In this document: piece after piece, positions 51,313 to 62,493 of the stretch
How positions within the stretch are numbered: the stretch's first letter is position 1
Layout of the letters: every line of letters starts with the position of its first letter
Assembly (NCBI GenBank): GCA_937922795.1
Contig: CALAJK010000010.1
Span: 62,001-126,000 of the forward strand
DNA from: an uncultured Anaerolineae bacterium
GTDB lineage: Bacteria; Chloroflexota; Anaerolineae; Aggregatilineales; Phototrophicaceae
Direction: 5' to 3'
DNA: 64,000 nucleotides
Made by a program: the position numbers and the translations under genes
The notes under the pieces: model-generated
Seen by the model: only the letters and a program-made list of their open reading frames with translations
Databases searched by the model: none
What the model was told of the DNA's origin: nothing

Positions 51313-52458
51313 CTACTCGACCGGCCCTTGCAGTTCCAAACTTGCCCATTCCTCAGACAGCTCAAAGGCGGCCGCATCTGCCGCCACGCGCTCTTTGTCA
51401 AAGGCGTTGAACAGTTCGAGCAGATCGTTGGACACCACCTCTTCGGCCAGCAACCGGCGGGTCGTCTGTCCCAGGTCATACAGACGATCCAGGTAGCTCT
51501 GCCAGTTGTCCATGTCGGAGTAGCCATAGCCCAGCCCGGCCGCATGCGTCTGGTTGTATAGGTACATGAGCTGGCGCATGGACTCCAGCGCCAGTTCGGG
51601 GGTCATCTGTTCGCGGACGGCGGCGAACTGCGCGTAGGTGATCTGGCCGGCGGCCTGCGGGTTCAGGCGGCCAAATTCCAGCCCCATCGCCACGCCGCGC
51701 AGGAAGCAGGCCATGACGGCGCGCTTCTCCGGGTCTTTGAGGTCAGCGGCACGAATGGCATAGCCGTTGGACGGGTCCTTCGAGAATTCGCTGCCGATCA
51801 GGTGGCGGAAGTTATAGCCGATAGCGTCCCACTGAGCGCGCAGGCCCTCCCAGCTCAGCGCGGCATCTGCCTGACCCTGCTGCACGAGCTGGCCCCACTG
51901 ACCGCTGCCCACATAGGTGATCGAGTTGATGTCAATGCCCTGTTCGGCCAAGATGGGATCGACAATGTTCCTGCCGCTGACGTCCCACAGGGCGATGGTT
52001 TTGCCCTCAAGGTCTTTGACCGACTGGATGTCGCTGTCCGCACGCACCGAGAAGTTGAACACCTGACCGGGAGCCATTTCAAACGCGATCACCACCGGGA
52101 TGCCAGCATCCACCGCCGCCGACAGCACGCCCGGCGAGGGGTAGCCTACATCCGCCTGACCTTCGGTCAGCAGCGCTAAGGTGGTCGGACCGCCGGATAC
52201 GCCCGGCTGGAGCTCGACTTCCAGCCCTAACTCTTCGAAGTAACCCAGCTCCTTGGCCACCCACAGCGGGTAATCATCCATCACTTCCAGCGTCCCGCGC
52301 GGCGAGATCCACACGACTTTGGCTCCATCCACCGGACAGGGATCGGCTTCCGACTGCGCCAGCGCCGGCGCGACCGCCGCGCTCACCAGCGCCAGCACGC
52401 CCATCAGCAGCAGTGCCAACCGCAGCCCAGCGCCCCATTGACGAGATCGACGAGTCAT
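51313..52458 (-). CDS. ABC transporter substrate-binding protein (SsuA/TauA/NMT1 type)
   Basis: The 381-aa secreted protein has a signal peptide (LALLLMGVLALVSAAVAPALA) and a strong AGGAGG site 8-10 nt before ATG 52458. The mature part follows the NMT1-like layout: PLWVAKELGYFEELGLEVEL, ALLTEGQADVGYPSPGVLSA, VKDLEGKTIALWDVSGR, GSGQWGQLVQQGQADAALSW. This fold binds taurine, sulfonates, nitrate, thiamine precursors and similar small ligands. The ligand here is unknown, but the neighbours point to a carbohydrate-derived or mixed compound. It is followed on the same strand by the isomerase and dehydrogenase genes. Confidence 0.88.
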   Translation of the reverse strand: MTRRSRQWGAGLRLALLLMGVLALVSAAVAPALAQSEADPCPVDGAKVVWISPRGTLEVMDDYPLWVAKELGYFEELGLEVELQPGVSGGPTTLALLTEGQADVGYPSPGVLSAAVDAGIPVVIAFEMAPGQVFNFSVRADSDIQSVKDLEGKTIALWDVSGRNIVDPILAEQGIDINSITYVGSGQWGQLVQQGQADAALSWEGLRAQWDAIGYNFRHLIGSEFSKDPSNGYAIRAADLKDPEKRAVMACFLRGVAMGLEFGRLNPQAAGQITYAQFAAVREQMTPELALESMRQLMYLYNQTHAAGLGYGYSDMDNWQSYLDRLYDLGQTTRRLLAEEVVSNDLLELFNAFDKERVAADAAAFELSEEWASLELQGPVE

Positions 52459-52591
52459 AGTTGTTACCTCCTCCAAAGAACCTCATTCACGAAAAGAACT
52501 ACCAACTGCCACTGTCTGGCGCCGCAGCCGGCGCGGGCTGCACACCCCGCGCGCCGGCTGAGAGAACCCGTGTGTGCCTGAACGCGCCGGC

Positions 52592-53446
52592 TCAGGCCTC
52601 CCAACTGGCCCATTTCTTGCCGATCAGGAAGAAGATGACGTACATGGTGATGCCGATCGTGGCGATGATCAGGATGGTGGCGAAGAACGCTTCCATACGG
52701 GCCAGCGACGAGTAGTACACCAGCCGGCTGCCCAGCCCGACGCCGCCGCCGACCATCTCCGCGCCGACCGCCGTCAGCAGCCCGAAGATGCCGCCGACCA
52801 TCAGGCCGACGATGATCATGGGCAGGGCGATGGGGAAACGGATCTTGTAGAAGATTTGCAGGGTGTTGGCGCCGTAAGAGCGCGCCAGGGCGATCTTGGC
52901 CAGGTCGGTGCGGCGGAAACCGGTCGCCGAGTTGATCATCACCATCGGCCCGACCGCCAGCGCCACCGCCACGATGCGCGGCTCCAGCCCGAAGCCCAAC
53001 CGCAGCACCAGCAGCGGCACCAGCGCCAGCATGGGGGTGGTCACCAGCAGGATGATATAGGGCGTGATGATCTTCTCAACCAGCGGCGCCTGGGTGACGA
53101 CGCCAGCCAGCAGAATGCCGATGGTGGCGCCGATGAGGTAGCCGCCCACCAGTTCCTGAAGCGTGACCCCGATGTGCGGCAGCAGCGTCTCGAAGTTGTT
53201 CACCAGCGCGTTGAAGATGCCGCTGGGGGCTGGCAGCACGTAGTTCGGCACCTGGAAGGCGCGGATGAGGATTTCGATGGTGGTGACCACCACCACCGCC
53301 ACCCCGACGATGATCAGGAATTCGCGCCGGTTGCGGGCTGTGGGCACATGGGTCAGCGCCGTCCAGTCGATGAACCCCTCATCCTGGGGTTTCACGTCCG
53401 TATCTTTGCGGAACTCCGGTATCTTCTCAAGCAGTTCATCAGCCAT
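52592..53446 (-). CDS. ABC transporter permease (SsuC/TauC type)
   Basis: The 284-aa product has a 48-residue cytoplasmic N-terminus (ADELLEKIPEFRKDTDVK) and about six membrane segments with the BPD_transp_1 motif in the loop FRRTDLAKIALARSYGANTL, followed by FYKIRFPIALPMIIVGL. This EAA-type loop contacts the ATPase. ATG 53446 is chosen because upstream residues read antisense through the ATPase gene. It is 14 nt downstream of the ATPase stop and upstream of the substrate-binding gene. Confidence 0.9.
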   Translation of the reverse strand: MADELLEKIPEFRKDTDVKPQDEGFIDWTALTHVPTARNRREFLIIVGVAVVVVTTIEILIRAFQVPNYVLPAPSGIFNALVNNFETLLPHIGVTLQELVGGYLIGATIGILLAGVVTQAPLVEKIITPYIILLVTTPMLALVPLLVLRLGFGLEPRIVAVALAVGPMVMINSATGFRRTDLAKIALARSYGANTLQIFYKIRFPIALPMIIVGLMVGGIFGLLTAVGAEMVGGGVGLGSRLVYYSSLARMEAFFATILIIATIGITMYVIFFLIGKKWASWEA

Positions 53447-53460
53447 GGCGGCGCTCCATC

Positions 53461-54279
53461 TCACTTCTTGACGCTGGCATGAATGAGCTCTTTGATCTCG
53501 CGGGCGGTCTCGACAAAATACGGTGACGACTGCATCTCCAGCGTGCGAGGCCGAGGCAGGTTCACCACCACCTCGCGCGCCAGCCGACCAGGACGGGGCG
53601 TCATCACCAGGATGCGGTCGGCCATGAACAGCGCCTCGACGATGCTGTGGGTGACGAACACGATCGTCTTGCGCTGTTCCGACCACAGCTTCAGCAGCAG
53701 CAGATTCATCTCGTCGCGGGTGAAGGCGTCCAGCGCGCCGAACGGCTCGTCCATCAGCATCACCGACGGGTCGAACGACAGACAGCGCACCAGCGAAGCG
53801 CGCTGCTGCATCCCGCCCGAAAGCTCGCGCGGGAACTTGTTCTCAAACCCGGCCAGGCCAACCGTCTCCAGCAGGTGCTGAATGCGCGTCCGGTACGGGG
53901 CTGCGTCCAGCCGCTTGATCTCAAACGGGAACAGGATGTTTTTCATCAAGTTGCGCCACGGCAGCAGGTTGGCCTCTTGAAAGACCATGCCAATCTCTGG
54001 CCGCGGACCTTTCACCGGGGTGCCATCCAGCGTGATCGCGCCGGAGGTCAGCGGGTGCAGGCCGCTCAGCGCCCACAGCAGCGTCGTCTTGCCGCAGCCG
54101 CTGGGGCCGACAACGCACACGAATTCGCCCTCGCCGATCTCAGCCGAGAAGCTGTCGAGCGCCAGCAGCGGGCCGGTCGCGGTCTGGTAGATCTTGGTGG
54201 CTTTGTCAATCACCAGGCGAGTAGACGGACGGGCAGAAGCCGCCGCCGTAGTGGGGGTCGTTTGCGCTTCAGCAGCCAC
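53461..54279 (-). CDS. ABC transporter ATP-binding protein (SsuB/TauB type)
   Basis: The 272-aa ATPase has Walker A (VVGPSGCGKTTLLWALSG), Q-loop (MVFQEANLLPWRNLMKN), the signature LSGGMQQRASLVRCLSFD and Walker B with D-loop (VMLMDEPFGALDAFTRDEM), then the switch His in IVFVTHSIVEALFMADR. It belongs to the nitrate/sulfonate/taurine family. A Thr/Ala-rich N-terminal extension of about 20 residues precedes the domain. It is the first transporter gene of the cluster after the VOC gene. Confidence 0.93.
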   Translation of the reverse strand: MAAEAQTTPTTAAASARPSTRLVIDKATKIYQTATGPLLALDSFSAEIGEGEFVCVVGPSGCGKTTLLWALSGLHPLTSGAITLDGTPVKGPRPEIGMVFQEANLLPWRNLMKNILFPFEIKRLDAAPYRTRIQHLLETVGLAGFENKFPRELSGGMQQRASLVRCLSFDPSVMLMDEPFGALDAFTRDEMNLLLLKLWSEQRKTIVFVTHSIVEALFMADRILVMTPRPGRLAREVVVNLPRPRTLEMQSSPYFVETAREIKELIHASVKK

Positions 54280-54319
54280 ACTTTTGTCCTCTCAACTCTC
54301 GAAAACGCGCGTTCAACGT

Positions 54320-54685
54320 TTAAGACGAGCGCTTGCCGAACCACACATCAGGGTCTTTGTAGACCATGTATTCGACCGGCATCCCATGCTGTTTGACGTA
54401 GGCGATCGTCAGGTTGTCGTCCACCGCAAACGGCTCGATCAGGATCTCGGCGCCTTCCAGCAGCGCCGGGAAATCTTCCGCCTTCACTCGGTAGGCGACA
54501 TGCGGCAGGTTGACCACCTCCCAGCGGCAGGGGGTGTCCGGCTCGAACCGCAGGAATTCGACGCGATATTTGTGGTGGCGCGGATTGGTGACCCACACGC
54601 GGGTGGACTCGACCCAATCTTCGTCGGGCTGAGGCTGATCTACGGGGATACCGACGTGGTCAAAAATGAGTTCAATCGGAGCCAT
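54320..54685 (-). CDS. VOC-family (glyoxalase-fold) protein
   Basis: The 121-aa product begins IELIFDHVGIPVDQPQPDED, the DHxGI start of vicinal-oxygen-chelate domains. It has PHVAYRVKAEDFPALLEG in the second half and ends VKQHGMPVEYMVYKDPD, where the Glu and Tyr would be metal or substrate contacts. It is a single domain, so it would dimerise. It may be a sugar-ketone isomerase or lyase accessory in the cluster. It is the first gene of the transporter-isomerase run, with AAGG 9 nt before ATG and a large palindrome 57-98 nt upstream. Confidence 0.78.
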   Translation of the reverse strand: MAPIELIFDHVGIPVDQPQPDEDWVESTRVWVTNPRHHKYRVEFLRFEPDTPCRWEVVNLPHVAYRVKAEDFPALLEGAEILIEPFAVDDNLTIAYVKQHGMPVEYMVYKDPDVWFGKRSS

Positions 54686-55055
54686 CGAAATAACCTTAAC
54701 TCTATTGCGGACGGCAGCGCTATTGGCATTAAAAATTCACACAAACGTGTGCGTGCACACGTTTGCATCAGCATACATGCAAATTTCGCAAATGTCAACC
54801 AGGTCGGGCATGACTCGGGCTCAGGTTGGGGAAGCCGCGGCCAAGCGTCTCCAGCGCCTCGCTGAGCAAGCTGTGCTCCTGTCGCTCGTCGCGCCCGCCG
54901 CGCCAGCGGTCAAGCTGCTCGATCCGTTTGCGGGCGCGGTCGCATTTCTGGAAGCAGCGGCGCGCGCGTGGGCGTGCTTGATTGCACTGAGGAGTCGCCT
55001 GTTATAGAATTCAGCGGAGTCTATTTCGCCCTAGCCCCAGTAGAACGGCCCCCTT
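54686..55055. other. 370-nt region between the VOC gene and the TIR-FGE gene
   Basis: It holds the palindromic operator described separately, an AT-rich promoter-like zone on the VOC side, and TTGATT with a 19-nt spacer and TATAGA (54978-55008), a weak candidate promoter for the TIR-FGE gene. A rightward frame through 54.81-55.01 kb is Ala/Arg-rich and I do not support it as a gene. Confidence 0.5.
54742..54783. promoter_or_regulatory. Overlapping palindromic operators upstream of the sugar/transport cluster
   Basis: CAAACGTGTGC and GCACACGTTTG (54742-54765) form a perfect 11-bp inverted repeat with a 2-nt centre. Overlapping it, TTTGCAT and ATGCAAA (54762-54783) form a second inverted repeat with an 8-nt centre. 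The first lies in the likely promoter region of the VOC-to-NagB run; a LacI-type or other dimeric repressor could bind here. Confidence 0.6.
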
Positions 55056-56345
55056 GTGGAACAGAAGACCGTCTTCATTTCCTATCGACGCGCCCTGAGC
55101 AAGCATCTCGCCCGTTCGATTTACATGGATTTGCGCGCCAACGGTTGGGATGTGTTCCTCGATGTGAACACTATCGACAGCGGCGACTTCGACCGCATCA
55201 TCCTCAACCAGATCGGGGCGCGGGCGCATTTCATCCTGCTGATCTCGCCCGGCTCATTGGAGCGCTGCGCCAATCCGGGTGACTGGGTGCTGCGCGAGAT
55301 CCAAGAAGCGGTGCGGCTGGAACGCAACATCGTGCCGATCATCGAAGAAGGCGTAGACTTCGACCGTGAGATGGGCTATCTGCCCGCTGACCTGCGCCAG
55401 GTTGTGAGCAAAAAGAGCGGCATTCCGCTCGTGCATTCTCATTTTGAAGAGACTGTGGAAAAGCTGCGCACGCGCTTTTTGGAATCGCCTGAGTACGTCA
55501 TCGTCACCGCAACGCCGCCAGCCGAGCGCGCCCCAGTCCAGCGCCGCCTGGCAGCACTAGCAGCCGAAGCCCCCGCGCCGCCCAAGCCCGCCCCCGCCAA
55601 ACCCACCAGCGTCGCACTGCTGCCCGCCCCCTTCGCCTGGGTCGAGATCCCCAGCGGGCGCGGGACGATGCAGACAGACGAAAGCGGCGTCACGCTGGCC
55701 ATCCCGACGGAGCGCTACTGGATCGCCAAATACCCCGTCACCAACGCCCAGTTCCGCCTGTTCATCGAAGCCGGCGGCTACCAAACCGAACGCTGGTGGA
55801 CGGCGGCGGGCTGGCAGGAGCGGCAGCGGGAGAAGTGGACGCAGCCCCGCTTCTGGACGGACAGGGACTTCAACGGCGCCGAACAGCCGGTCGTCGGGGT
55901 ATCCTGGTTCGAGGCGGTGGCGTTCTGCCGGTGGCTGAGCGAGGCGACGGGCGAGGATATCATGCTGCCGACGCAAGCTCAGTGGCAGTACGCCGCACAG
56001 GGGGATGATGGCAGAGCCTATCCCTGGGGAGATGCGTGGGACTGCAAGCGCTGCAATAATTCGGTGTCGCCTTGTGACAGCCGTCGGACGACGCCTGTGC
56101 GCGCCTACGAAGGCAAGGGCGACAGCTCCTTCGGGGTGGTGGATATGGCAGGCAACGTGTGGGAATGGTGTTTGACGGATGATGACGATGGAACCAATAT
56201 TGTTGATAGTATCTCGAACAGCAGGGTGCTGCGGGGCGGCTCGTGGTACGACGATAGTACCGAGTATTTCCGCTGCGTCTATCGCTTTGGGGTCAGCCCT
56301 GACCTCTGGGTCAACGGCTGGGGGTTTCGCCTCGCCCTCTCTTGA
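55056..56345 (+). CDS. TIR-FGE-sulfatase fusion, candidate DGR target protein
   Basis: The 429-aa product starts at a GTG without a clear ribosome site. Residues about 5-140 are a TIR domain (TVFISYRRALSKHLARSIYM, WDVFLDVNTIDSGDFD, DWVLREIQEAVRLERNIVPI). A Pro/Ala linker (about 158-185) joins an FGE-sulfatase/C-type-lectin-like domain (193-429: YWIAKYPVTNAQFRLFIEAG, VVGVSWFEAVAFCRWL, LPTQAQWQYAA, VVDMAGNVWEWCL). The tail RVLRGGSW-...-GFRLALS is where DGR variable regions lie, and its intervening codons look diversified. TIR domains can cleave NAD+; the FGE-like fold displays a variable ligand-binding surface. It may be a sensor or defence protein. Confidence 0.85.
   Translation: MEQKTVFISYRRALSKHLARSIYMDLRANGWDVFLDVNTIDSGDFDRIILNQIGARAHFILLISPGSLERCANPGDWVLREIQEAVRLERNIVPIIEEGVDFDREMGYLPADLRQVVSKKSGIPLVHSHFEETVEKLRTRFLESPEYVIVTATPPAERAPVQRRLAALAAEAPAPPKPAPAKPTSVALLPAPFAWVEIPSGRGTMQTDESGVTLAIPTERYWIAKYPVTNAQFRLFIEAGGYQTERWWTAAGWQERQREKWTQPRFWTDRDFNGAEQPVVGVSWFEAVAFCRWLSEATGEDIMLPTQAQWQYAAQGDDGRAYPWGDAWDCKRCNNSVSPCDSRRTTPVRAYEGKGDSSFGVVDMAGNVWEWCLTDDDDGTNIVDSISNSRVLRGGSWYDDSTEYFRCVYRFGVSPDLWVNGWGFRLALS
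56223..56342 (+). other. Candidate DGR variable region at the 3' end of the TIR-FGE gene
   Basis: It codes for residues 390-428. Between the fixed GGSW and GFRL blocks, many positions that are Asn in typical templates hold other residues whose codons end in C or T (TAC, GAC, TTC, GTC, CTC, GGC, TGC, TAT, TTT). That is what adenine-specific mutagenesis of AAC/AAT triplets would give. No matching adenine-rich template repeat was found in the window by eye. Confidence 0.55.
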
Positions 56346-56397
56346 GGGTGTTCGGGCATTCTGCATTCTGTGATGCCGCATTTCTGATTGTGCGAGC

Positions 56398-56434
56398 GCA
56401 GCGAGCGCCCCTTTCCCGCGAAGCGGGTCGCTGC
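56398..56434 (+). repeat. GC-rich hairpin after the variable region
   Basis: GCAGCGA (56398-56404) pairs with TCGCTGC (56428-56434), enclosing CCCGC-GAA-GCGGG (56415-56427). The left side carries a 10-nt bulge. It lies 53 nt after the target stop. DGRs often have a hairpin or cruciform shortly after the variable region; this position fits. Confidence 0.5.
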
Positions 56435-56444
56435 AAAAATACGG

Positions 56445-56682
56445 ATGAGGACTTATCGCCATCTCTATCCACAAGTGTGCGCCTTCAGCAACCTGTACAA
56501 GGCCTGGCGTCAAGCCTGGCGCGGCAAGCGCTGTAAAGCTGCAGCGGCGGCCTTCGAACAGAACCTAGACGTCGAACTCTGCTGGCGCTGCACCGGGAAT
56601 TGACTACGGAGACCTATCAACCGGGCGCAGATGTCCATTTTGTAGTGCATCAGCCTAAACGTCGCTTGATCAGCGCCGCGCC
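56445..56682 (+). pseudogene. DGR-type reverse transcriptase, frameshifted N-terminal remnant
   Basis: The first frame (56445-56603) reads MRTYRHLYPQVCAFSNLYKA, then WRQAWRGKRCKAAAAAFEQN, the characteristic N-terminus of DGR reverse transcriptases. A two-base insertion near 56579-56582 shifts the frame, and the next frame continues LALHRELTTETYQPGADVHF, then VVHQPKRRLISAA. Homology stops at about 56682, where the 3' end of the opposing WD40 gene begins. The catalytic palm with YxDD is absent, so it is a dead remnant. It lies 99 nt after the TIR-FGE target gene, the arrangement of target followed by RT. Confidence 0.75.
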
Positions 56683-58853
56683 CACACACGGGCTGTGCCA
56701 TCTGTGCTGACCGTGAGGATGCGCGATCCGTCCGGGCTGAAGGCCACGCTGTGGATCTCGCGCCTCATGTGGCGGCCCACCGCGCCGGCCAGCGTCCCGG
56801 TATTCACATCGAGCACCCACACCTGATTTTCCTGCCACGCCACCGCCAGGTACTGGCTGTCCGGGCTGAAGGCCAGGTCGTAGATTGGAAAGTCGCCCGG
56901 GTTGGTCGGCAGCCGGTAGGAAGCCTGCCGCTGACCGTCCGCCACTGACCACAGGCGGACTATGCCGGTCTCATCCCCGGTGGCGATGCGCGTCCCGTCT
57001 GGGCTGAACGCTACGGCCAGCGCCCGCTGGGGGTGGGGCAGCGTGGCGACCACCGCGCCGTCGTCTGTCGCCCACACCCGGGCCTGGTTGTCGGGGCTGA
57101 GCGTGACCAACCAGGTTCCGTCTGGGCTGAAGCGAACGCGGTAAACTGGCATAGGGTTGGCGGCTGGGCTGCCCAAGCTCAGCCGCCGCTGCCCGTCTGG
57201 CACGGTGTACAGCTCAAGACGGCCGTCTGTGCTCCCAAAAGCCAGCAGCGCGCCGTCCGGGCTGATGTCCGCGTCGAACTCGGGTTCAGCGCTCGGAACT
57301 GAAACGACCACCTCGCCCAAGGCGTCCCACAGGATGGCCATGCCCGTTTGCCCCGCAGATACGTCAAGCGTCAGATAGTGCGCGCCGTCCGGGCTGATAA
57401 CCACATCCCGGATGAAGGTCGGGAAAGCAGATGACGGAGCGATGTTGATTGGCAGCCCGCGATAAGCGCTGCCATCCGCTTCCCAGAGCAGTACATTAGC
57501 GCGGTGACACCCCACCATGATCTGCGCGGCGTCCGGGCTGAAGGCCGCAGCGCGCACGGCCGCCGGTTCATGAAATGTTTCGGCCGACAAACACGGCAGT
57601 CTGACAACTGTCGCGCTCTCCTGGGCAAAATCCCACACCACCATGCGCTCGACCGAGCCGAGCAGCACGGCGCGCGCGTCTTGAACGAGAATGCGCCTGT
57701 CAAAGCGCATCAGCCGATCACGGTCGAAGGGGTCGCGTTCGAAGGCTTCATCTGACCAGATGCGCTCGCCAGCAGCGGCATCCCACACAGACGCCCTCAC
57801 GCGCCGCCCCGTTGTGTCAGTTTCCAGTGCCAGAATGCGCGACCCGTCTGGGCTAAAAACCATCGCCTCGATAATCGACGTGAAGTTTTCGCGCGCCGGG
57901 TCGGCGAGGCTGGTGCGCCACAGCTCTACACCGTCAGCCGACCACAGCGCGATCTCACCGGCGCCGACAGTAGCGATGCGCGCGCCGTCCGGGCTGAACA
58001 CGGCGCTCTCGCCTTCCAGGGTCAGCCGCTGGTTCAAGCTTGGGGTGTCTAGCACCTGTACCTGTTTCGCATCGTGGTTGGCGATCAGCAGCAGGTTGTC
58101 CGGCCCGAAAGCCGCGTCGTGGCCGGCGCGGCGTCCGAGTTCAGCGCCGCTGGCAGCGTCCCACAACCGCACCTGTCCGTCATCGCTGACCGAAACGATG
58201 AAACGCCCGTCCGGGCTGAGCGCAGCGCGGCGCGCCCTGAAGTCTTCGTCGCGCCCTAGTACCAGCTCCCGCTCGCCCGTCTCGACAGACCACAGGCAGA
58301 CCTCACCTTCGCTGAAGGTTCCCTCGGCCAAGAACAGGCGCGTGCCGTCAGCGGAGTAGGTTGGGGACGTTGACCAGGTGCAGAACCGGTCAGGGGTAGG
58401 GGCGTGCCGCACTGTCCCGCTGGTCAAATCCAAGATGTGGATCAGCGCTTCGTCAGGTTCCACCCGGTCCGAGGTGAAGGCGAGGTATTGACCATCTGGG
58501 CTGAAAGCGACGCCGGATATGTCATCGGGAGGGTCGTAATCGTAGGGCTGGTTGGCCAGCTCGTAGCCGCTTGCCAAGCGCAGGCTGCCAGGCTCGTCCA
58601 GATCGTAAAGCCACAAGCCAGTTTGGGACGCGATCGCCAGCAGCCGGCCGTCAGGCGACAGCGCTACGTCGTTCGGGCCGACAATGCCGATCCGCAGCAC
58701 CTCACGAAAGCCGCTGTAGGGCTGCCCTTCTGCCGCCGTCGTCGCTGTGCGGACATCAACGATGCGCTCGCGCTGCAGCAGTGCAATCACGGCTGTGACA
58801 GCGCCCGCCACGAGTCCCAGCATCAGCACGCGGGTGATCCAGCTTTTCGGCAT
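56670..58853 (-). CDS. Membrane-anchored WD40 beta-propeller protein
   Basis: The 727-aa product has an N-terminal membrane anchor (residues about 7-27, RVLMLGLVAGAVTAVIALLQ) followed by up to 13 WD40-like repeats with the core AFSPDGxxL..G...G.. and ..xLW (for example SGVAFSPDGQYLAFTSDRV, AALSPDGRFIVSVSDDGQV, AVAFSPDGTRIATGDETGIV, SVAFSPDGSRILTVSTDGTA). It likely forms one or two propellers outside the membrane for protein binding. Its last codons overlap the end of the DGR RT remnant in antisense. GAGG sits upstream of the ATG. In Chloroflexota such proteins often pair with TIR or kinase effectors. Confidence 0.85.
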   Translation of the reverse strand: MPKSWITRVLMLGLVAGAVTAVIALLQRERIVDVRTATTAAEGQPYSGFREVLRIGIVGPNDVALSPDGRLLAIASQTGLWLYDLDEPGSLRLASGYELANQPYDYDPPDDISGVAFSPDGQYLAFTSDRVEPDEALIHILDLTSGTVRHAPTPDRFCTWSTSPTYSADGTRLFLAEGTFSEGEVCLWSVETGERELVLGRDEDFRARRAALSPDGRFIVSVSDDGQVRLWDAASGAELGRRAGHDAAFGPDNLLLIANHDAKQVQVLDTPSLNQRLTLEGESAVFSPDGARIATVGAGEIALWSADGVELWRTSLADPARENFTSIIEAMVFSPDGSRILALETDTTGRRVRASVWDAAAGERIWSDEAFERDPFDRDRLMRFDRRILVQDARAVLLGSVERMVVWDFAQESATVVRLPCLSAETFHEPAAVRAAAFSPDAAQIMVGCHRANVLLWEADGSAYRGLPINIAPSSAFPTFIRDVVISPDGAHYLTLDVSAGQTGMAILWDALGEVVVSVPSAEPEFDADISPDGALLAFGSTDGRLELYTVPDGQRRLSLGSPAANPMPVYRVRFSPDGTWLVTLSPDNQARVWATDDGAVVATLPHPQRALAVAFSPDGTRIATGDETGIVRLWSVADGQRQASYRLPTNPGDFPIYDLAFSPDSQYLAVAWQENQVWVLDVNTGTLAGAVGRHMRREIHSVAFSPDGSRILTVSTDGTARVWARR

Positions 58854-59064
58854 GTGTCGTTTTTCCTACCTCAGCCAACGAGTTAGAAAAGAAGACAACA
58901 AATAGCGAATGACGGCGGCGCTCGATACACCTGCAGACAGTATATCTGTTGTGAGGCTGCCGTGTAATTAGACGCTGATGAGCAAACCACCGTGTGGGTG
59001 CATTTCAAACTAGTGGCAAAGCGCTCAGTTACAAAGATAGGGTGAGACAGTGCAATCAGCGGGC

Positions 59065-59340
59065 ATGTGCCAAAAACGCGAGAGTGAAGACGTTCGCTTT
59101 GCCCGCCTTGCGTATCGCGTCGCCCAGCGCCGAGTGCCGCCGCGCTATACGCATCCCAAAAGCCCGCGGCGCTTCACTCAACCGCAGTGGGTGGTGTGCC
59201 TGCTGCTGACGCAGTATCTCAATCTCAACTACCGCAACACGGAAGCATGGCTGCTGGCGAGCGCGGAAGTGCGAGACGTGTCGGAATTGAGCCAGGTTCC
59301 CGATCACACGGCGATCTCATGCCTGCACTGTCGGCGGCGC
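59065..59340 (+). pseudogene. Transposase N-terminal fragment
   Basis: An in-frame stretch reads KRESEDVRFARLAYRVAQRR, THPKSPRRFTQPQWVVCLLL, QYLNLNYRNTEAWLLASAEV and VPDHTAISCLHCRRR, which I recognise as the N-terminal part of a DDE transposase of the IS4/IS5-like kind common in this phylum. The catalytic DDE region is missing and the frame runs into the terminator of the tRNA. It marks a past insertion next to tRNA-Asn. Confidence 0.65.
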
Positions 59341-59349
59341 GCGTCTACG

Positions 59350-59377
59350 AAAAACGCCCCTCGCGTTGGGGGGCGTT
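59350..59377 (-). terminator. Intrinsic terminator after tRNA-Asn
   Basis: On the minus strand ACGCCCC and GGGGCGT form a 7-bp stem (loop 9 nt) followed by TTTTT, a few nucleotides beyond the tRNA 3' end. Confidence 0.85.
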
Positions 59378-59382
59378 CGCTG

Positions 59383-59454
59383 CTCCACAGCCTGGATTCG
59401 AACCAGGAACCCATCGGTTAACAGCCGATTGCTCTGCCGTTGAGCTACTGTGGA
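59383..59454 (-). tRNA. tRNA-Asn (anticodon GTT)
   Basis: On the minus strand the 72-nt sequence folds as a tRNA: acceptor TCCACAG / CTGTGGA, D-arm AGCTCAACGGCAGAGCA, anticodon arm ATCGGCTGTTAACCGAT with GTT, and T-arm CCTGGTTCGAATCCAGG. The discriminator is G; a CCA tail is not encoded. It has its own promoter and terminator. Confidence 0.95.
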
Positions 59455-59465
59455 AGATGGCCAAC

Positions 59466-59494
59466 ATAGTAGCAAAGCCCGCCGGCGCTGTCAA
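59466..59494 (-). promoter_or_regulatory. Promoter of tRNA-Asn
   Basis: TTGACA, a 17-nt spacer and TACTAT on the minus strand, 11 nt before the tRNA 5' end. Confidence 0.8.
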
Positions 59495-59595
59495 GACGTT
59501 TTGCGCCGGGGCGCGCCTGCTGTAGTATAGGACAGCGTTTCGCCGATCCGGTTGGACGCCGACCCGCGTCAAACGCCGCCGAAAGGATGATCGCC

Positions 59596-60756
59596 ATGTC
59601 CGCCCCCGTCGCTGTGCGCCCGGTTGAAAGCCGCCAGGACTTCCGCGCCTTCTTCGAGTTCCCCTGGACGCTGTACCGCGATGACCCCAACTGGGTTCCG
59701 CCGCTGCTGTCTATGCGCCGCGACCTGCTCGACAAGCGCAAAAACCCCGCCTGGGCCGAATACATGGAAGGCGAGTACTTCGCCGCCTGGCGCGGCGATC
59801 AGATCGTCGGCACGATCGTGGCCTTCATCAACCACCGCCACAACCAGTTCCACCAGGAGCATATCGGCTGGTTCGGCATGTTCGAGGTCTACGACGACCA
59901 AGAAGCGGCCAGCGCCCTGCTGGACACAGCGGCGGACTGGGTGCGGGCGCGGGGGTACGACGCCATCCGCGGGCCGCAGACCTTCACCACCCACGAGGAC
60001 TGCGGCATCCTGGTGGATGGGTTCGTGCGGCCGGTGCTGCTGATGCCCTACAACTTCCCCTACTACGGGCGGCTGGTCGAAGGCGCTGGCTTCGTCAAGG
60101 CGCAGGATCTGTACAGCTTCTACCTCAGCCGGCAGGGCGCGCTGGAACACAAGACCGGCGACCGCCTGGCGCGGCTGACGCAGGCCGTCATGAAGCGCAA
60201 CAAGATCACCGTGCGCCAGATCGATCGGCGCAACCTCAAAGCCGAATTCCAGCTCTTCAAGGACATCTACAACGCCGCCTGGGACCGGAACTGGGGGTTC
60301 GTGCCGATGACGCCGCGCGAACTCGACGCGCTGGTGCACAGCCTGGGCCAGTTCTTCGACCCCGACCTAGCGTTCTTCGCCGAGGTGGAGGGCGACCCGG
60401 CCGGGTTCATCCTGGCCATCCCGGACTTCAATCAGGTGCTGCACCGGGTCTATCCCCGGCCGGGCGTCCCGGAATGGTGGTCGCTGCTGCGGGCGCTGTG
60501 GTATTGGAAGGTGCGCCCGGTCATCGATACGGCGCGCATCCCGCTGATGGGGGTGAAAGAGCCTTACCGCAAGACCGGCGTGGCGGCGGTGCTGTACTAC
60601 TACGTCCTGGAAGCGCTGATGAGCACGCCTCACATCCTGCACTCCGACTCCGGCTGGATCCTGGAGTCCAACGAGAACATGGTCAGCATCGCGCTCAGCT
60701 TCGGCTCCACCATCTACAAGACGCACCGAATTTACGAGAAGCGCTTCCAGCGGTGA
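59596..60756 (+). CDS. Large GNAT-like N-acetyltransferase
   Basis: The 386-aa product has VRPVESRQDFRAFFEFPWTL at the N-terminus, YFAAWRGDQIVGTIVAFINH, FGMFEVYDDQEAASALLD and DYDAIRGPQTFTTHEDCG-like segments (here GYDAIRGPQTFTTHEDCGIL), and later FFAEVEGDPAGFILAIPDFN and KEPYRKTGVAAVLYYYVLEA with GWILESNENM near the end. It matches large bacterial GNAT/DUF-type acyltransferases whose second half carries the AcCoA fold. Substrate unknown. AAAGG sits 9 nt before ATG 59596. It is divergent from the tRNA gene. Confidence 0.78.
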   Translation: MSAPVAVRPVESRQDFRAFFEFPWTLYRDDPNWVPPLLSMRRDLLDKRKNPAWAEYMEGEYFAAWRGDQIVGTIVAFINHRHNQFHQEHIGWFGMFEVYDDQEAASALLDTAADWVRARGYDAIRGPQTFTTHEDCGILVDGFVRPVLLMPYNFPYYGRLVEGAGFVKAQDLYSFYLSRQGALEHKTGDRLARLTQAVMKRNKITVRQIDRRNLKAEFQLFKDIYNAAWDRNWGFVPMTPRELDALVHSLGQFFDPDLAFFAEVEGDPAGFILAIPDFNQVLHRVYPRPGVPEWWSLLRALWYWKVRPVIDTARIPLMGVKEPYRKTGVAAVLYYYVLEALMSTPHILHSDSGWILESNENMVSIALSFGSTIYKTHRIYEKRFQR

Positions 60757-60889
60757 GGTCTGGCTATCTGGGCAGCCCGATGAGCCCGCCCGGTTGGTGC
60801 GCAGGCGTGCGGGCGCACACCGGCGCGCCCCTGTACGCTTTGTGATCCGCGCGCCGCTGCGGATGCGTCTGCCCTGCCCTTGAACGCAA

Positions 60890-60915
60890 GCGCCGGAAGA
60901 ACCTATGTCCGGCGC
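60890..60915. terminator. Hairpin between convergent genes
   Basis: GCGCCGGA (60890-60897) pairs perfectly with TCCGGCGC (60908-60915) around a 10-nt loop, between the converging acetyltransferase and malQ genes. No U-tract. Confidence 0.4.
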
Positions 60916-60939
60916 AGCGCTCATCTCAGATCATCCAGA

Positions 60940-62493
60940 TCAACCGGCGGGATCGTCCGCTTCGTCCTCCTTGCGTTCCGGGGCGCGCCCGAACACCTCC
61001 GTCATCCGCGCCAGCCGCACTTTCGCCGGGTGTTCCAGCCAGTCGGCGGTGAAGCGCCAGCCCCAGTTGCCCGCCTCGCGCCCCGGCGTGTTCATCCGGG
61101 TGTCCGCCCCGAACCCCAATACGTCTTGCAGCGGGGCGATGAAGGTGTGTGCCACCGACATCATCCCCAGCCGGATGAGATCCCAGTGCGGCTCGGTGAC
61201 CGGATGGCCGACGTAATCTTCCAGATAGGCGCGGATGTCGGGCGTGGCCTCGCCGGTCTGCCACCAGCCCAGCGTGGTGTTGTTGTCGTGCGTGCCGGTG
61301 TAGACGACGCAGTTCTTCTCGTGGTGATGCGGCAGGAAGCGGTTCTCGCCGCCCGCGCCGCCAAAAGCGAACTGGAGGATCTTCATGCCGGGCAGCCCCA
61401 GGCCATCGCGCAGCTCGACCACGCCGGGCGTGATGACGCCCAGGTCTTCGGCGATGATCGGCAGCGTGGACAGCGTCTCTTGCAGCCGGTTGAAGAACTC
61501 GAACCGCGGGCCGGGCACCCACTGGCCGATGACGGCCGTCGGTTCGCTGGCGGGCACTTCCCAGTAGGCCTCAAACCCCCGGAAGTGATCCAGCCGCACC
61601 AGGTCGACCGTCGCCAGCGTGGCCTTGAAACGTTCCATCCACCACTGATACCCGTCTTCCGCCATCCGGTCCCAACGGTAAAGCGGGTTGCCCCAGCGCT
61701 GCCCGGTCGGACTGAAGTAATCCGGCGGCACGCCGGCGACCACCGTCGGCCGGCCCAACTCGTCCAGGTAGAACAGATGCCGGTTCGCCCACACGTCGCT
61801 GCTGTCGTGGGCGACGAAGATCGGGATGTCGCCGATCAAGCGGACGCCCTGGGCGTTGGCGTAGGTTTTCAGCGCGTGCCACTGGCGGAAGAACAGCCAT
61901 TGGCGGAAGCGGTGCTCCTCAACCTTCCGCGCGTGTTTCTGGCGCGCGGCGGCCAGCGCCTCAGGATGGCGCAGCGCCTCGCCCTCCGGCCATTCAACCC
62001 ACGGCTGGCCGCCGTAGGACTCTTTGAGCGCCACGAACAGGGCGAAATCCTCCAGCCAGTGCGCATTGGCCGCCGCCCAGCCCTCGTACTCGGCGCGCTG
62101 TTCGGGCGTGCTGTGCGCCTGATAACCCTTGAAGGCCTTCGCCAGCATGTGGTTGTGGTACGCGATGACTGGGCCGAAATCCACCAGATGCGGATTGAAA
62201 GCCGGCGCGTTGGCCAGATCGGCTTCGGTCAGCCAGCCATCCTGCGCCAGCCGGTCGAAGCTGATCAGCAGCGTGTTGCCGGCGAACGCCGACAGACACT
62301 GATAAGGCGAGTCGCCGTAGCTGGTCGGCCCCAGCGGCAGCACCTGCCACAGGCTCTGGTTGGACTCAACCAGCCAGTCCACGAACTGGTAGGCGTAGTC
62401 GCCCAGGTCGCCAATACCGTATTTGCCGGGCAGCGACGTGGGGTGCAGCAGCACACCGCTGGAACGGGGAAATAACGCGCTGGTCGGAGTCAT
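60940..62493 (-). CDS. malQ: 4-alpha-glucanotransferase (MalQ)
   Basis: The 517-aa GH77 enzyme transfers alpha-1,4-glucan segments (amylomaltase). Visible motifs: SSGVLLHPTSLPGKYGIGDL, WQVLPLGPTSYGDSPYQCLS, LIGDIPIFVAHDSSDVWA, VRLDHFRGFEAYWEVP (catalytic nucleophile Asp), PIIAEDLGVITPGV (acid/base Glu) and YTGTHDNNTTLGWW (transition-state Asp). The length is standard. It is preceded at 72 nt by the hisS stop on the same strand. Confidence 0.95.
   Translation of the reverse strand: MTPTSALFPRSSGVLLHPTSLPGKYGIGDLGDYAYQFVDWLVESNQSLWQVLPLGPTSYGDSPYQCLSAFAGNTLLISFDRLAQDGWLTEADLANAPAFNPHLVDFGPVIAYHNHMLAKAFKGYQAHSTPEQRAEYEGWAAANAHWLEDFALFVALKESYGGQPWVEWPEGEALRHPEALAAARQKHARKVEEHRFRQWLFFRQWHALKTYANAQGVRLIGDIPIFVAHDSSDVWANRHLFYLDELGRPTVVAGVPPDYFSPTGQRWGNPLYRWDRMAEDGYQWWMERFKATLATVDLVRLDHFRGFEAYWEVPASEPTAVIGQWVPGPRFEFFNRLQETLSTLPIIAEDLGVITPGVVELRDGLGLPGMKILQFAFGGAGGENRFLPHHHEKNCVVYTGTHDNNTTLGWWQTGEATPDIRAYLEDYVGHPVTEPHWDLIRLGMMSVAHTFIAPLQDVLGFGADTRMNTPGREAGNWGWRFTADWLEHPAKVRLARMTEVFGRAPERKEDEADDPAG

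Follow-up and report, generated by a model that had tools for sequence, protein, structure and literature searches.

The locus at 55056-56683 of the window, the 64-kb stretch of DNA analysed here (G000:C10:62001-126000), is very probably the relic of a chromosomal diversity-generating retroelement (DGR) that has left behind a SARM1-like TIR receptor, diversified in the past and by now most likely frozen. The original prediction, a degenerate DGR whose target is a TIR-FGE protein, is borne out by homology to reverse transcriptases (RTs) beside the target gene, by a variable-region (VR) signature measured against template repeats (TRs) of related species, by a gene order shared with relatives, and by the TIR-FGE targets that those relatives carry. 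The parts of the locus are collected in Table 1. A phage collection searched with positions 54700-58000 gave 0 matches.

Table 1. Parts of the relic locus, in window coordinates.
Feature	Position	Strand	Basis
TIR-FGE fusion, former DGR target, 429 aa, GTG start	55056..56345	+	PF13676, PF03781
E81 codon (aligns with the SARM1 DWVHKE glutamate)	55296..55298	+	phmmer alignment
VR, VLRGGSW...GFRL; variable codons within residues 398-422	56226..56333	+	ungapped TR comparison (L051, L085, L174); third-base test 15/15
Post-VR hairpin; core CCCGC-GAA-GCGGG at 56415-56427	56398..56434	+	fold prediction
RT remnant, frame A = RT residues 1-46	56445..56582	+	L051 RT 56.5% identity; phrog_1423 E 1.9e-7
RT remnant, frame B = RT residues 45-79; RT homology ends here	56579..56683	+	L051 RT 65.7% identity; phrog_1423 E 8.7e-5
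WD40-repeat protein; 3' end antisense over RT remnant; marks truncation point	56670..58853	-	ORF list, domain search

The target gene is open over its whole length, and Pfam finds two domains only in its product, TIR_2 (aa 6-113) and FGE-sulfatase (aa 195-427, E 5.7e-48), in agreement with the proposed fusion of a TIR to an FGE-like domain. In a sequence search the TIR part matched SARM1 TIR structures over aa 5-142 (E 7e-22), and the glutamate of the SARM1 DWVxxE motif, the catalytic residue of SARM1, aligned with E81 of the window protein. The window TIR is predicted on the basis of this sequence likeness to be a SARM1-like NAD hydrolase; SARM1 itself is an animal protein with other domains. 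For the TIR-encoding stretch (55056-55505), SARM1 was by far the nearer match, as the two other TIR entries listed gave E 0.67 and 0.89. One alignment (A1) includes a caspase-FGE protein (L085), and invariance in its TIR columns was not counted as evidence. Among TIR anti-phage systems (Thoeris and kin) none matched above a curated cut-off; NCBIfam ThcB4 reached 41.1 bits against a cut-off of 220, and the PADLOC ThsB model, for which PADLOC gives no cut-off, matched aa 3-87 only (1.1e-8). The FGE part matched TvpA of Treponema denticola (2y3c, E 6e-10), likewise a DGR variable protein of FGE type, although this 294-residue chain was matched in its FGE part only and is not known to have a TIR domain. 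By sequence, the protein possesses the CLec/FGE-fold domain seen in DGR targets. Its AlphaFold model had a mean pLDDT of 63 and was poor in the VR, with pLDDT <50 at 393-421.

The RT-like stretch begins 99 nt after the target stop as a frameshifted, truncated ORF, both frames of which had been predicted to match the N-terminus of DGR RTs. They did so in a search limited to the analysed loci, where the RT of L051 was matched with E 1.1e-18; among 17 RTs, two more being too short, the top identities were 30/45 for frame A (L204) and 26/35 for frame B (L085). A profile search of the two frames was answered in part: they fell on adjoining positions of PHROG RT family 1423 (96-140 and 141-175), whereas Pfam, NCBIfam and PADLOC were silent on these two short frames. 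The remnant comprises the N-terminal 79 residues, and residues 80 onward are missing; RVT_1 occupies residues 71-284 of the L051 RT, and nearly the whole of this domain is gone. In relatives, the order target, RT, TR is found at L051, L053, L057, L085, L222 and L223, with Avd after the RT at L051, L053, L057 and L085, and the gap from target to RT is 107 nt at L051 versus 99 nt in the window. DGR RT sequence adjoins the window target in the canonical order.

The codons between GGSW and GFRL had been proposed to fit adenine-to-any mutagenesis of AAC/AAT triplets. No TR of the window locus was found, and the tail was compared, without gaps over 108 nt, with TRs from other species. Against the same-genus TR (L174 of genome G012), differences occurred at 20/32 TR adenines and at 13/76 other bases (p 6.9e-6), and 12 of these 13 were third codon positions (12 of the 36), as expected between species. 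The bias was also seen against the TRs of L051 (p 2.5e-5) and L085 (p 1.0e-5), whereas the FGE codons upstream of the VR, compared with four targets as a control, showed no significant bias (p 0.087-0.21) and diverged most at third positions. At the 15 AAY/AGG sites of the G012 TR, the closest found, the window kept the third-base class (Y or G) in every codon and had the first or second base altered in 14/15, which fits A-to-N mutagenesis of AAY and AGG codons. The tail holds an adenine-derived codon pattern, as measured against these related TRs.

We then asked how far such a pattern is shared among other FGE tails. Third-base scores of 14-15 were obtained for tails with a matching TR or of TR type, namely G012, L051, L063b, L006 and the window's relatives in G040; elsewhere the scores were 12 (L007) and 11 (L087a), but also 14 (L008) and 15 (L087b). 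Among 15 equal-length tails in 80 named loci, four scored 15, three of which are VR or TR sequences of this analysis, the fourth being L087b. With an RT match the scores were 11 (L145) and 13 (L134), and without one 15 (L087b) and 14 (L105). The score depends on the TR type used here. AAY sites in FGE tails vary naturally too, since non-DGR-looking tails compared with the L051 TR gave adenine bias with p 0.0056 (L060), 0.012 (L061), 0.045 (L008) and 0.085 (L007). The TIR-FGE orthologues L060 and L061 lacked a clear signature (10 and 12 of 15). The tail pattern used had no match in L062, L084 and L018, and the six closest TIR-FGE orthologues had no RT match within the 2-13 kb of sequence examined around each.

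Genome G040 encodes three TIR-FGE proteins (L059 2728-4260, L059 4430-5704 and L189 4886-6601), whose VRs differ pairwise at first, second and third codon positions by 10/7/0, 9/11/1 and 14/15/1, while over the 199-200 codons upstream the differences are greatest at position 3. For the two that share 65% and 47% identity with the window protein, the counts were 10/7/0 in the VR versus 13/9/25 upstream. G040 gave no RVT_1, bAvd or TR pattern match.

The GC-rich hairpin predicted 53 nt after the stop was located there. Its 5-bp core stem lies 81 nt past the VR and carries a GAA loop with C-G as the closing pair, a combination present at one place on the window's + strand. GAA-loop 5-bp hairpins were found within 220 nt after 9/19 VRs or VR-like tails and after 0/8 TRs, against a background of 21 in 381,411 bases of both strands, counted hits included, or 0.0055 per 200 nt of one strand. 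The hairpin is absent after 10/19 VRs; L188 of G012 is without it, and so are three (L057, L222 and L223) of the four cis or proven TIR-FGE neighbours. The phage BPP-1 DGR resembles the window locus as described (PMC3240598, PMC12875486) in having a hairpin downstream of its VR, which it requires (PMC3240598), together with adenine-specific changes and an RT with Avd; it differs in being functional and having a phage target, and the published phage hairpin has a longer stem of 7-10 bp, a GRNA tetraloop and a shorter distance of 4-34 bp from the VR (PMC3240598, PMC12875486). The window hairpin departs from that consensus in stem, loop and distance, though it is common to several related DGR targets, and by analogy it is probably a homing element. 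It was also considered as a terminator and rejected, as the terminator scan lists none there.

DGRs that look intact were found in relatives. A TIR-FGE target, recognised by Pfam, directly precedes the RT at L222, L223 and L057, with TR/VR mismatches at TR adenines in 26/27, 18/18 and 20/20 cases, respectively. These were among the adenine-type pairs revealed by two scans. The first, of 12 loci, gave such pairs in six (L051 19/19, L052 21/21, L053 18/18, L055 22/23, L057, and the weaker L054 14/20) and was empty for the other six. The second, of 20 loci, gave seven (L222, L223, L225 18/18, L231 15/16, L232 17/17, L204 14/16, and the weak L228 5/6); repeats at L224, L230, L176 and L059 were not adenine-type, and no pairs were found at L226, L227, L229, L234, L189, L060, L061, L062 and L084. 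Targets other than TIR-FGE were also present, a caspase-FGE protein at L085 and a kinase-FGE protein in G012, where the TR and the VR (L188), on different contigs, show 20 base differences, 19 of which fall on TR adenines. In G018, of the same family as the window genome, a single TR pairs with four VRs, spread over three contigs, and every mismatch is at an adenine (18, 14, 19 and 16 changes; L051 3953-4060, L063 226-333 and 9446-9553, L006 2170-2277). Other contigs carry two of these VRs, in TIR-FGE proteins (L063 9416-11065 and L006/L176), and the remaining two, in the target beside the RT and in a fragment, are both cut by contig ends. This suggests that TIR-FGE proteins are diversified in trans.

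The window genome was examined for any such machinery by searching its assembly (G000, 3.6 Mb, 127 contigs, 85% complete). The original prediction had called for a search there for an adenine-rich TR matching the tail and for other DGR RTs, and neither was found. No RVT_1 was present, and bAvd (PF22296) had 0 matches in G000, compared with 15/41 genomes matching at E <= 0.001 and 8/41 over the cut-off. A DNA search of G000 for the TR returned 25 matches at E <= 10, of which the query was the sole strong one and the next had E 0.015; pattern searches of G000 revealed no TR, the sole match of one being the VR itself, and a TR/VR pair scan of window positions 52001-62000 found none. The marks of a functional DGR, an intact RT, a TR matching the VR, and Avd, are all missing from the locus and from G000. 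TR-like AAY-rich sequences (L165, L166, L168 and L170) occur in four further genomes, G008, G002, G006 and G019, with no DGR RT there at E <= 1e-30.

The prediction had left the target either frozen or diversified in trans, and we favour the former, given that the genome searches turned up neither RT nor Avd nor TR. Continued diversification, with RT and TR encoded in the unassembled part of the genome, is an unlikely, lesser reading. It can draw on the incompleteness of the assembly, on the intact VR and hairpin of the window, on the single TR serving four VRs in G018, and on the incomplete loci of Thiohalocapsa, for which diversification in trans is explored by the authors (PMC10907252). What weighs against it, besides the searches of G000, is the rarity of the enzyme, a DGR RT at E <= 1e-30 being present in only 15/154 genomes of the order and 2/17 of the genus (G000 among the 17).

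Frame B runs into the antisense of the last codons of the WD40 gene. The stop and last codons of that gene (56670-56690) are antisense to the RT remnant. Most of the listed matches to WD40 homologues end at residue 724-725 of 727, and a few reach 726-727, which hints at a deletion junction. An empty-site test with the gene gave, among the matches listed, none of full length except the gene itself, the best being 38% over 481-725. A fragmented assembly might suggest that the truncation is an artefact and the locus intact in the organism, which we consider very improbable: the junction lies inside a 128.6-kb contig and adjoins an open WD40 ORF, the frameshift is present too, and a second cut RT is known from genome G088. 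There, an intact FGE target is followed by a DGR RT matching residues 2-92 only (L234 2835-4642). From this and the window remnant, RT loss beside a retained target seems to have occurred more than once. Least credible of all is an ordinary FGE protein lying beside an unrelated RT fragment, its tail a normal FGE C-terminus, for although GGSW...GFRL is a general FGE motif, and L060 and L061 show a weak signature with no RT match in the flank examined, the third-base conservation, the lack of significant adenine bias upstream, a post-VR hairpin common to DGR targets and the conserved target-then-RT order all speak against it.

On the basis of a decayed DGR, we propose the following course of events. 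An error-prone RT with Avd would once have copied a TR, randomised its adenines, and overwritten the target gene at its 3' end; the ligand face of the C-type-lectin-like FGE domain would thereby have become hypervariable, as the relatives suggest. RT residues 80 onward, Avd and the TR would then have been lost, most simply by a deletion joining the remnant to the WD40 gene, and the frameshift would have arisen as well. The target was kept intact, leaving a receptor that is most likely fixed in a single variant. Its FGE domain may recognise some ligand, perhaps a molecule from a phage or a competitor, and activate the SARM1-like TIR, which would deplete NAD+ in an abortive form of defence.

DGR targets that carry TIR domains, and loci that are incomplete, have already been published for multicellular bacteria (PMC10907252). 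The targets described there similarly join a CLec/FGE VR to effector domains including TIR, the DGR 2 target having CHAT and TIR, but many come with STAND or MoxR NTPases, whereas the window target is TIR and FGE only by Pfam and its RT is destroyed. DGR variable proteins of cyanobacteria likewise carry TIR-like, kinase and orthocaspase-like domains (PMC7517822). One cyanobacterial paralogue is described with remnant TR-VR homology and no RT gene or pseudogene nearby, and loss of the machinery after variant selection is suggested (PMC7517822); the window, by comparison, keeps an RT remnant beside the target. The idea of a TIR effector with a hypervariable surface as a striking new recognition system is weakened accordingly: the window locus is a decayed example of a published kind (PMC10907252), and the cis and trans TIR-FGE DGRs of the order extend the picture.

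A broader proposal, which we put forward only tentatively, is that bacteria of this Anaerolineae-like order diversify, by one DGR lineage, one-piece effector-sensor receptors (TIR-FGE, caspase-FGE and kinase-FGE) that lack an NTPase switch, with several of them supplied in trans by a single TR, and that some species, this one among them, then discard the retroelement, fixing a selected SARM1-like TIR receptor. If so, the fixed receptor would be the bacterial counterpart of a germline receptor that has been frozen. The intact-looking TIR-FGE DGRs of relatives and the broken one here form a before-and-after case, in which one can follow what becomes of a diversified receptor once its mutator is gone. 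The locus agrees with the published proposal of DGR targets as antigen sensors, and with a SARM1-like TIR fused straight to a variable FGE domain, the link from ligand to NADase becomes testable in one protein. In the literature searched, no paper combined SARM1, bacterial TIR and Chloroflexi. In the window, Rfam at gathering thresholds found nothing except one tRNA gene, at 59383-59454 on the - strand.
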